Shown piece after piece: positions 34,827 to 40,071 of a stretch of 64,000 bases of DNA. Source of the stretch: Gilliamella sp. App4-10 (GTDB lineage Bacteria; Pseudomonadota; Gammaproteobacteria; Enterobacterales; Orbaceae); assembly GCF_001690495.1 (NCBI RefSeq), contig NZ_LZGS01000046.1, forward strand, positions 1 to 64,000. Reading direction: 5' to 3'. Positions within the stretch are counted from its first letter, which is position 1, and every line of letters begins with the position of its first letter. The notes below the pieces were generated by a model. The model was not told the DNA's origin, did not search any database, and was given only the letters and a program-made list of their open reading frames with translations. The position numbers were made by a program, and so were the translations under genes.

Positions 34827-35456
34827 ATGAAACAGATAAAACGTCTATTTGTTATTAGTGCAATGACTTGTGTATTAGCAGGTTGTCATCTTATTAGTCA
34901 TTCCCCAAAAGTTGAAGTAAAACCGTCCGTTGATGTCACTGAACCTGATGATACAGAGGTGATTGAAACGCCGCCTCAGATCGTTAAACAAACTGATTGG
35001 AACACAATATTATCACCATTTGTAAATAAAATATTACACGTGTCACTTTCAAATAATGACAATAAAATTATTTTAATTAGTGACATTCAAAATCGTAGTG
35101 GTGATTATCTTGTAACAAATCAAATTGATGACGTATTACATCAATTAATGAATAAACAAAATATGTTTACAGTTGTCAATAGGCAGTCAACAAACCAAGC
35201 TAAACAAGCGTTAGGTATTTCGGCTGATGATAAGTTTGTGTCACGTGGTAAGATGATAGGGTTAGCTAAATCAATCAATGCTGGATATGTGCTATTTACA
35301 ACTATATATAAAGTACCAACTGAGAGTAATGATGCTAATCTTTCAGTCGAATTGCTATCAACACAAAGCGGAGAAATCTTAACAAGAGTGACATCGAAAG
35401 ACTTCTCTTCACAACAAAATACTAATAAAGATAACGTTTCAGAGGCACATGAATAA
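34827..35456 (+). CDS. lpoB: Penicillin-binding protein activator LpoB
   Basis: A 209-residue outer-membrane lipoprotein that activates PBP1B. Signal peptide with lipobox VLAGC (Cys19), a proline/acid-rich linker (about 22-60), and the LpoB domain, with VNRQSTNQAKQALGISADDKFVSRGK in the middle (cited in parts). Lies between hinT and nagZ, as in the E. coli ycfF-ycfL-lpoB-thiK-nagZ block but without ycfL and thiK. It stops directly before the nagZ ATG. Confidence 0.88.
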   Translation: MKQIKRLFVISAMTCVLAGCHLISHSPKVEVKPSVDVTEPDDTEVIETPPQIVKQTDWNTILSPFVNKILHVSLSNNDNKIILISDIQNRSGDYLVTNQIDDVLHQLMNKQNMFTVVNRQSTNQAKQALGISADDKFVSRGKMIGLAKSINAGYVLFTTIYKVPTESNDANLSVELLSTQSGEILTRVTSKDFSSQQNTNKDNVSEAHE

Positions 35457-36500
35457 ATGGGACCATTATTGATTGATGTCGAAGGTACTTCATTAACCAA
35501 TGAAGATAAAGTGCTTTTGAAAAATCCATTGATTGCAGGGGTGATTTTATTTAGTCGTAATTATCAAGATCAAGCTCAATTAATGGCATTGATAAAACAG
35601 ATTCGAGCGGCTTCTTCACAGCGTTTATTAATTTCGGTCGATCATGAAGGTGGACGTGTTCAGCGGTTTAGAGAGGGATTTACGGCGATTCCTCCTGCGC
35701 AATCGTTTGCAGCCCTTAATAATCTTGAGCAAGCTAAGTCATTAGCCTTTGATGCCGGCTGGGTACTTGCTATGGAACTCATTGCCTTTGATATCGATCT
35801 TAGCTATGCACCTGTTTTAGATTTAGGTCATGACTGCTTAGCTATTGGTACACGTTCGTTTCATCAAGATACCAATATCGCTTATCAAGTTGCTTCCGCT
35901 ATGATTGATGGTATGCATGTAGCAGGTATGAAAACAACGGGTAAACATTTTCCGGGACATGGTCATGTGATTGCTGACTCGCATAAAGAAACGCCCATTG
36001 ATGATCGTAAAAAATCGTTGATTGAACATGATATGCAAATATTTGCTAAGCTTATTGCTGATAAAAAACTCGATGCGATTATGCCTGCTCATGTTATCTA
36101 TCCTGCTTTTAATAATAAACCGGCTAGTGGTTCATCGTATTGGCTTAAAACAGTACTTCGCGAGCAATTGCATTTTGATGGTGTCATCTTTTCTGATGAT
36201 TTATCAATGGAAGGTGCTTCAATAATGGGCAATTATGCCGAGCGAGCACAAGCGGCATTATCCGCAGGCTGTGATCTGCTTTTGGCTTGTAACAATAGAC
36301 AAGGGACGTTAGCTATTTTAGACCAATTGACTGCATTAGATAGGGTTCATCCTGTAACATCAGATAAAGCAAAACGTTTACTAACCAATACAAAAATGAC
36401 TTATTCAGAATTAACGAAAAGTTCTGAGTGGCAACATCGACGAGATAATTTAGTAAAACTTAGTGAAAAGTGGGCAAATTATGCAAGTAGCAATCATTGA
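35457..36500 (+). CDS. nagZ: Beta-N-acetylhexosaminidase NagZ
   Basis: A 347-residue cytosolic GH3 enzyme that removes N-acetylglucosamine from anhydro-muropeptides in peptidoglycan recycling. Key motifs: DHEGGRVQRFREGF near the N-terminus, KHFPGHGHV with the catalytic histidine loop, and FSDDLSMEGA with the nucleophilic aspartate. The ATG abuts the lpoB stop codon (TAA-ATG), so translation is coupled. The tail overlaps the start of tyrR by about 20 bp. Confidence 0.96.
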   Translation: MGPLLIDVEGTSLTNEDKVLLKNPLIAGVILFSRNYQDQAQLMALIKQIRAASSQRLLISVDHEGGRVQRFREGFTAIPPAQSFAALNNLEQAKSLAFDAGWVLAMELIAFDIDLSYAPVLDLGHDCLAIGTRSFHQDTNIAYQVASAMIDGMHVAGMKTTGKHFPGHGHVIADSHKETPIDDRKKSLIEHDMQIFAKLIADKKLDAIMPAHVIYPAFNNKPASGSSYWLKTVLREQLHFDGVIFSDDLSMEGASIMGNYAERAQAALSAGCDLLLACNNRQGTLAILDQLTALDRVHPVTSDKAKRLLTNTKMTYSELTKSSEWQHRRDNLVKLSEKWANYASSNH

Positions 36501-37722
36501 AATTGATAATAACCAACATCTGGTTGCGTATAATCATGTCGCTAAGGCATTATTGCCTAATCATGCTTTAGTATTAAATCAACCTTTTGATTATCAAAAG
36601 ATCTTCAATCTTGATAATATAATCAATATAGATGAACAAGATGATACGATCATAGTTTTAAACTCTCAGCATGTTTTATTGCAAAGAGTAATGGGATCGT
36701 CTAAAACCCTATTTATTTTACAATCAATTGATTATCTAAAAAAACGATTATCAAAAATCAAAGTAGTGGGTGGGCATGCTTTTGATATTTTTGCCACCGA
36801 AAGTTTGGTTATGCAAAAACTCATTGCTCAAGCTAAAGCCTTTTCTATACAACGCGAACCATTATTAATATCTGGAGAAACTGGCACAGGTAAAGATTTA
36901 CTGGCTAATGCTTGCCATCAATATAGTCCACGCGGTGATCAAACCTTTCTAGCATTAAACTGTGCAGCCATGCCTGATGATGTGGTCGAAAGTGAATTAT
37001 ATGGCCATGCAGCAGGCGCCTATCCTGGTGCTATTGAGAATAAAAAAGGCTTTTTTGAGCAAGCTAATGGTGGTTCTGTATTGCTTGATGGTATTGATGA
37101 AATGTCTTTTCAAATGCAAACCAAATTACTTCGTTTTATTAATGATGGTTATTTTCGCCGTGTGGGCGATGATAATGAAGTCTATGTTGATGTAAGAATT
37201 ATTTGTGCAACAAAGGTCGATTTAGCCGAGTTGGTCGAACAAGGTAAATTTAGAAAAGATCTTTACTACAGACTGAATGTGTTGTCGCTTAATTTACCTT
37301 CTTTACAAGAGCGTAAAGATGATATTGCGCTACTTACTCATATTTTTGTCAATGAATTTGCCAATAAACAAGGCATCACTCCACCAAGGATTGATCATAA
37401 TGTGATTGATTATTTGATAGGTTATTCATGGCCTGGGAATGTAAGACAACTAAAAAATATCCTCTATTCAGCATTAGCGCAATTAACCTCGCCGATATTA
37501 ACTGTCAAAGATATTGTGTTACCAACTTCAGCCACATCGCAATTATCATGGGTTAGCAATATTGAAAATAAAACCCTTGATGAAATGACTAAACAATTTG
37601 AGAAAGAAATCTTATTAAAATTATATGACCAATATCCAAGTTCAAGAAAACTCGCCAAAAGGCTAGGCGTATCACACACGGCGATTGCGAATAAGCTGAG
37701 GGATTATAGGATAGGACGGTAA
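36481..37722 (+). CDS. tyrR: TyrR-type transcriptional regulator, N-terminally short
   Basis: About 413 residues (ATG 36481; a GTG at 36463 would add six). A PAS-like N-terminal part of about 100 residues precedes a sigma54-type AAA+ domain and a C-terminal HTH (SSRKLAKRLGVSHTAIANKLRDY), which is near-identical to E. coli TyrR. The N-terminal ACT domain of E. coli TyrR (513 residues) is missing. Walker A is intact (SGETGTGKD), but Walker B reads LLDGIDE where LLDEIGE is expected, so the catalytic Glu is a Gly. Unlike E. coli TyrR it keeps a GAFTGA-like loop, GAYPGA. It should regulate aromatic amino acid genes. Overlaps nagZ by about 20 bp. Confidence 0.88.
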   Translation: MQVAIIEIDNNQHLVAYNHVAKALLPNHALVLNQPFDYQKIFNLDNIINIDEQDDTIIVLNSQHVLLQRVMGSSKTLFILQSIDYLKKRLSKIKVVGGHAFDIFATESLVMQKLIAQAKAFSIQREPLLISGETGTGKDLLANACHQYSPRGDQTFLALNCAAMPDDVVESELYGHAAGAYPGAIENKKGFFEQANGGSVLLDGIDEMSFQMQTKLLRFINDGYFRRVGDDNEVYVDVRIICATKVDLAELVEQGKFRKDLYYRLNVLSLNLPSLQERKDDIALLTHIFVNEFANKQGITPPRIDHNVIDYLIGYSWPGNVRQLKNILYSALAQLTSPILTVKDIVLPTSATSQLSWVSNIENKTLDEMTKQFEKEILLKLYDQYPSSRKLAKRLGVSHTAIANKLRDYRIGR

Positions 37723-38311: not shown

Positions 38312-40071
38312 ATGTTATTTTGTATAACATATCGCAAAAAAAAAGTAAAATATGAAGTGAAATTAATACTGGCTTTTTTGTTCCTAATACCAATCAGTGC
38401 AATAGTGGAACATACATTAATTGCGCCCAGGATAGAGGGTTTTGGTGTTTGTGAGTTAGCCATAAATAAGGGAATTTCCAGTTCTAATGAAGCTTTGCTT
38501 ATTGCGAGTCTATTAATGTGACCTCAGCTTCCTTTCTTGAAAAGAAACTATCAATGTTTGGAAATTTTAAGAGTGTAAATGGTAAATTTCAAATAAGCTA
38601 TGTTATATCTTTACCTCTCTTGTGCTATGCTGTTATGGAACAAAAAGGCGAAATTAAAATAAATAAAAAGAAGATAAGTTATCAGTTAAAATTATTAAAA
38701 GACAGCATGTTGCCAGTAGTTATTTATCTTTTTTCTAACTACTTCAGTGTAAGTTAAAGTGCCTATATTGAAGATATGATTGCAAAATTAGATAGCAGAA
38801 GTTTAATGCAACTTAGTGATGGAACTATTCCTTTGGATAAATATTTTGCAAGCAGAATATATCCGTGGTCTATTAATTCAAACCAATCACTTGTTGATAA
38901 GGTTAGAAAAGCGTCATTAAATGAAATCTTAACGCAAATATGTGAAATGAGTCCCTCCGGTAAAAATAAAATTCGATCAGTTATTACTCTTAGCTCAGTT
39001 CGCTATACTTTTCATAATGTTTGGGGGAGTATAGGGTATAAAGAAAAAATGCAATTAACTGATTATTCAACGGACTCCATTAAGCGTTTTCGATTCTATT
39101 TAATTAATAAATATAAAACAAACAATAAATTAAATGATAAATTAACTTTAAATTTTAACTTTTTTGATGAGATTGCTTCTCTTTCTAAAAATATAATGAA
39201 AGATGATTTAAATAAATTTTTCGAACCTCTGAATTATGACTCTTCAGGTAAGCTTACTCTCTACAGTTGGGCCGATTTAGGGAAAAACAAATCATCTAAA
39301 ATAAAAATTTATGCTGATATTGGGTTTAATATGATGGTTGTTTATCAAGCGATACCAACGCTTGAAACTTCAGTTGTTAGATATCGTTATTATTTAGATT
39401 TTCGTAATATGAGCCATGGCATCTATTCAGTTGATAGACCTGTTCAATTCTCAGTTGAAAATAAAATACTATTTTGGTATGTCTATCCGAGGTCTTTAAC
39501 GGCTGTTTATTATAATCCTTTTTCTGAAGATTTTTATAATTCCAAAGAAAATGAAGTTAAAAGTGAAATTTCCGATTATGCTGACATAGTTCGTGCTTCA
39601 TGTATTGGTAAAGAAAAAACTTTTTCACATCAGATTGAACCAGTATAAAATGGAGATTGGCATGAAGAGAAAATGACGACTGAAGATTTACAAAAAATAA
39701 ATGGTCCTTACAATATAGGTTCCAATTCCGACAGATTTTCATTTTATAGTGATTATACCTTTGATTGGTTCAAACAATCAAAAATTAATAAGTATGACAT
39801 ACCCGAAGCTCATCCTATGGCTAATAATGCAGATATAATAAAAAAGGCAATTTTACGCCATCATGATAACGGGACTGTATTTGTCGTTTCTCATTATGTT
39901 GATATTGCCTCTGATTCTTTTGAAGAAGATAGAAATCATGCTAAATTTAAAATTGAGATAGATAATAAAGAATACAATTCAAATGTATATTTTGATACTA
40001 TTTATAATAAGTATAATTTATATCAGTTAATTAAGTCGTTAGATGGATTTAAAATATTTTGTAGTAAGTAA
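38312..40071 (+). pseudogene. Broken unrecognised gene with two in-frame TAA codons
   Basis: The 5' segment (38312-38521) encodes a basic start and a hydrophobic anchor (KLILAFLFLIPISAIV), then a frame change between about 38490 and 38521. From 38518 a single frame runs to 40071 (about 518 codons), interrupted only by TAA at 38755-38757 and TAA at 39646-39648. The three pieces (79, 290 and 132 residues) look coding, rich in aromatic residues, for example RYRYYLDFRNMSHGIYSV and VVSHYVDIASDSFEED. I do not recognise the family. The likeliest reading is one recently inactivated membrane-anchored protein of about 580 residues; separate small genes or sequencing errors are alternatives. Confidence 0.6.

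Follow-up and report, generated by a model that had tools for sequence, protein, structure and literature searches.

TyrR of Gilliamella sp. App4-10 has lost the catalytic glutamate of its Walker B motif to a glycine, and TyrRs lacking this glutamate are a real, fixed variant spanning two families, the Orbaceae and the Pasteurellaceae. Orbaceae TyrR has probably kept ATP binding and lost ATP hydrolysis, because the ATP-binding residues are invariant and only the catalytic glutamate is gone. The gene lies at 36481-37722 of the window, the whole 64,000-nucleotide stretch of contig NZ_LZGS01000046.1 that was analyzed, and encodes a PAS-AAA+-HTH TyrR of 413 residues without an ACT domain; it and its features described below are on the forward strand. 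Its product is the only TyrR-level match in the 2.43-Mb genome, the next two matches being other bEBPs (L002, with GAFTGA and DEIGDM, and L003, with GAFTDA and DELNAM).

The N-terminal domain (residues 1-96; 36481-36768) is a PAS domain resembling the one in E. coli TyrR. This assignment comes from structure: the AF2 model (pLDDT 83) finds its best match in 2jhe, residues 89-188 of E. coli TyrR (Z 10.0, rmsd 2.5, 86 residues), and profile comparison by itself is weak (probability 29%). A preliminary description of this DNA had stated that the protein lacks the N-terminal ACT domain; the ACT domain is indeed absent, but the first 96 or so residues form the PAS domain with which the protein begins. 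In the broad sense an ACT domain is not treated as obligatory for TyrR, since it is also missing from short Pasteurellaceae proteins accepted as TyrR. The protein scores 480 bits against NCBIfam NF008085 (TyrR equivalog), below the cut-off of 576; the match begins at model position 176, and the shortfall is the missing N-terminus (first 175 positions unmatched). At the other end, the TyrR/PhhR-type HTH (37570-37713), with RKLAKRLGVSHTAIANKLR common to other TyrRs, scores 93.1 bits against TIGR04381 (cut-off 30) and is intact, as had been proposed.

Upstream lies nagZ (35457-36500, forward strand; Pfam Glyco_hydro_3, 318 bits), the 3′ end of which overlaps the start of tyrR. Throughout Gilliamella the overlap is 20 bp (36481-36500 in the window), or 38-41 bp with an upstream ATG, and in Orbus and Frischella tyrR starts within about 10 bp of the nagZ end. 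Translational coupling in the lpoB-nagZ-tyrR cluster is suggested by this overlap or near-adjacency across the Orbaceae genera compared. A box within lpoB (35021-35038) was considered as a site of autoregulation and rejected, being present in only a few close relatives. Downstream of tyrR, at 38776-39648, is an open reading frame of 290 residues with no Pfam match.

The AAA+ domain (residues 103-345; 36787-37515) is of the bEBP type (Pfam PF00158, 203.9 bits; AAA_lid_14, 65 bits), with a Sigma54_activat domain, Walker A, arginine fingers and sensor II all in place, and its structure matches FlrC, NtrC1 and PspF with Z up to 31.7. Invariant in Orbaceae are Lys138 of Walker A (GETGTGKD, 36874-36897), Asp203 of Walker B (VLLDGIDE, 37078-37101), the arginine fingers Arg258 (37252-37254) and Arg264 (37270-37272), and the sensor II residue Arg322 (37444-37446); the Asn of the PspF glutamate switch is kept as well. 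The Asp-Glu pair of a sigma54-dependent bEBP, however, is Asp-Gly: Gly204 (GGT, 37090-37092) replaces the catalytic glutamate, which is Glu299 in the LLDEIGE motif (D298/E299) of E. coli MG1655 TyrR. The coordinates, protein and motifs of the preliminary description are all exact on translation of 36481-37722, including its intact Walker A, its glutamate-to-glycine exchange and its E. coli comparison.

An alignment of 180 distinct frames was used to place this exchange. Immediately following the Walker B Asp, 42/42 Orbaceae have Gly, 92/92 Pasteurellaceae have Ser, Gly, Asn or Ala, the single genome of family f27 has Gln, and 45/45 rows (one E. coli sequence being counted twice) from the other Enterobacterales families surveyed have Glu. 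Family f9 was recognized as Pasteurellaceae from the HTH of its member L210, which shares 59 of 61 residues with H. influenzae 1g2h; near-copies of the H. influenzae protein that has been studied are among the 92. The f27 protein (G069, L125) is a short frame of 334 residues on a long branch, reads DQIEE at Walker B and represents a third lineage lacking the glutamate. The earlier question of whether the glycine is fixed is thereby answered in the affirmative for Orbaceae, and relatives carrying Asp-Glu, which would have marked it as an oddity of one strain, do not occur in either family (0/42 and 0/92).

Both GGT and GGC serve as the glycine codon among Orbaceae. dN/dS is 0.004 around Walker B, whereas the AAA+ domain gives 0.045 and the PAS domain 0.21, rough values given that synonymous sites are near saturation. 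The glycine is a fixed state under very strong purifying selection, and since it is fixed family-wide it is neither an error nor a strain-specific mutation. With 42 sequences, two codons, intact frames and low dN/dS, a sequencing error, a private mutation or a decaying gene has next to no probability and is refuted by the survey. A strict rule linking N-terminal truncation to glutamate loss was also rejected: full-length Pasteurellaceae TyrRs lack the glutamate too, so that its loss is independent of truncation. The accessible literature yielded no remark on the variant.

What the fixed glycine does to nucleotide use can be read in more than one way. The main rival to ATP binding without hydrolysis is an exchange of acids, DEIGE to DGIDE, in which Asp206 (37096-37098) would take over catalysis and ATP would still be hydrolyzed. 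As a candidate substitute, position 206 is suggestive: all 42 Orbaceae have Asp there and f27 has Glu (DQIEE), and none of the 45 glutamate-bearing rows is acidic at this site, an acid thus being found only in the glutamate-less TyrRs of the survey. Yet Asp206 lies two positions past the normal catalytic site, and an acid occupies position 206 in only 4/92 Pasteurellaceae, with Ala in 63 and Ser in 17, which makes the exchange unlikely. Slightly less probable again is that the AAA+ domain uses no nucleotide and is a mere folded scaffold for dimerization or oligomerization of the HTH. The several residues that substitute for Glu in Pasteurellaceae do suggest relaxed constraint there, but no Orbaceae sequence departs from the Walker A Lys, Walker B Asp, arginine fingers or sensor II, and the Pasteurellaceae keep them too, save for a single sequence truncated at Walker A, and the Walker B segment is the one with the dN/dS of 0.004.

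The region corresponding to the sigma54-contact loop reads GAYPGA (37015-37032). It is a remnant of the GAFTGA loop in which Pro, Leu or Gln replaces the Thr: all 42 Orbaceae keep the loop, with letters varying as GAY(P/L/Q)G(A/V/I) and the sigma54-contact Thr absent, so the loop is fixed and its exact sequence is not. Glutamate-bearing TyrRs carry similar loops (GAYPNA in Tatumella and other members of f19, GAYPGV in f11, GAYPNV in f5), and E. coli MG1655 (K-12) TyrR has ELFGHAPEGKKG in the loop region and LLDEIGE at Walker B. A 2005 paper on the TyrA family (PMC1173090) noted remnants of the GAFTGA loop and its complete loss from the clades of E. coli and of Pasteurella/Haemophilus. The GAYPGA loop is an ancestral remnant, and it is the E. 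coli deletion that is derived. Use of the loop in a new way, once proposed, finds no support, given the GAY(P)-type loops of glutamate-bearing TyrRs and a remnant known since 2005 (PMC1173090).

A search for rpoN in the genome, advised at the outset, found the gene. Its presence, together with retention of the loop in all Orbaceae, would suit a sigma54 activator in disguise, in which ATP-bound GAYPGA contacts sigma54 without hydrolysis, like PspF E108Q on pre-opened DNA. This is very improbable: the GAFTGA Thr is replaced by Pro, Leu or Gln in 42/42, PspF T86A is unable to engage the closed complex (PMC4132715), TyrRs of other families carry similar loops, and no sigma54 -24/-12 site was found at the two box-bearing targets, DAHP synthase and the ABC-transporter binding protein. 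Despite rpoN, sigma54 activation by Orbaceae TyrR seems unlikely because the sigma54-contact Thr is absent.

The likely operators of Orbaceae TyrR lie at aromatic-pathway genes. The DAHP-synthase gene (G000:C18) has three TyrR boxes on its 5′ side (23250, 23379 and 23410), and the ABC-transporter binding-protein gene has two. Other Orbaceae have boxes at corresponding places: across the family, the DAHP-synthase upstream regions (34 read; automatic detection missed the gene start in seven more) hold 84 sites at up to one mismatch, where shuffles predict 1.2, with a consensus tuned on the window's own genome and an A+T-rich motif in an A+T-rich genome, the shuffle control having the same composition. 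The proximal pair is 31 bp apart, and 4 of the 34 regions have none or one weak site. Genome-wide, 385 TyrR-like sites were counted and the reversed pattern gave 360, so that only clusters and their conservation are informative. Orbaceae TyrR looks like a working regulator, since pairs or triplets of boxes are conserved 5′ of DAHP synthase across the family. One Orbaceae genome (G002, 99% complete; L294) has no TyrR ortholog that was found, its best match being a GAFTGA/DE bEBP (L095), and retains three DAHP-synthase boxes with one mismatch in each; it is possibly a natural loss of TyrR.

Several known systems frame these features. Orbaceae TyrR resembles E. coli TyrR in its boxes, HTH, PAS and AAA+ domains and DAHP-synthase target, and differs in that the E. 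coli protein has the ACT domain and Glu299 and lacks the loop. It shares with Pasteurellaceae and H. influenzae TyrR, described as being without activation (PMC1173090), the loss of the Walker B Glu (L210 reads DGIAEL), a commonly short form and the same HTH type. Unlike those of Orbaceae, however, short Pasteurellaceae forms have no PAS domain, the GAFTGA loop region is deleted, the substitute residue varies (S/G/N/A), and many members keep a full-length TyrR frame. Pasteurellaceae TyrRs in open frames of 526-594 residues (L123, L143-L145, L147-L149, L151, L152 and L154, and further L162, L166, L167, L169 and L170) contradict the 2005 statement that the N-terminal domain was lost in the whole lineage (PMC1173090).

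The AAA+ fold also matches the Walker B mutants PspF E108Q and NtrC1 (4qnm, 3m0e), in which the corresponding residue is changed; these are engineered Gln or Ala in sigma54 activators, and the Gly of Orbaceae TyrR is natural. PspF E108Q has <1% ATPase, binds ATP about 30-fold more tightly and forms constitutive hexamers, and E108A is weaker than E108Q (PMC4132715). R. capsulatus NtrC, V. cholerae VpsR and Caulobacter NtrC are bEBP-type AAA+ regulators that have no working GAFTGA and act at sigma70 promoters; unlike TyrR, they are of the response-regulator type. As cited in PMC10274813, R. capsulatus NtrC, without GAFTGA, is reported to work at sigma70 promoters by binding ATP with no need to hydrolyze it, and VpsR is reported to need no ATP.

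It is fairly likely, judging from conserved motifs and operators, that Orbaceae TyrR is a short PAS-AAA+-HTH repressor that binds ATP without hydrolyzing it and acts at sigma70 promoters. Its sites would be the paired TyrR boxes of aromatic amino-acid genes transcribed from sigma70-type promoters, with DAHP synthase and the ABC-transporter binding protein as proposed targets. The AAA+ pocket would hold ATP, probably together with tyrosine, as a structural cofactor for oligomerization on boxes in pairs or triplets. With the Walker B Glu gone, ATP hydrolysis would be extremely slow or nil, and for this reason TyrR would be a ligand-set switch and not a motor. We infer here not only ATP binding without turnover but also the tyrosine response, oligomerization and repression as the direction of control. 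The suggestion that the protein may bind ATP without hydrolysis and regulate sigma70 promoters fits all the evidence, apart from the new use of the loop that accompanied it: the binding residues checked are invariant, the catalytic Glu is gone, the boxes are conserved and the main target has no sigma54 promoter. Two counterpoints deserve mention. In PspF, E108A is weaker than E108Q, and glycine is a drastic change, so that ATP affinity might fall; and ordinary E. coli TyrR may not depend on hydrolysis either, in which case loss of the Glu would change little.

One, two or three losses of the Glu are all compatible with the trees and AU tests. A free TyrR tree from which the motif columns were left out requires three changes, and RpoB places Orbaceae nearer to the glutamate-bearing f5, f11 and f19 than to Pasteurellaceae. 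A single clade of Orbaceae and Pasteurellaceae is nevertheless not rejected (TyrR p 0.66; RpoB p 0.15), and the sole grouping disfavored is an RpoB clade that includes f27 (p 0.03). Possibly, although we lean against it, Glu loss was a repeated step in the passage of TyrR from sigma54 motor to sigma70 repressor, the acid having moved two residues in Orbaceae and f27 (DEIGE to DGIDE/DQIEE) to give a catalytic acid at a new position or else a switch locked by ATP. If true, these proteins would form a naturally occurring set of AAA+ regulators no longer tied to hydrolysis.

The glutamate-less TyrRs are a natural experiment on the need for ATP hydrolysis in a bEBP-type AAA+ regulator that has left sigma54, and the H. 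influenzae protein examined in vitro falls in, or very close to, this group. If ATP binding without hydrolysis holds true, ATP would be a cofactor of TyrR, and not its fuel, in two whole bacterial families.
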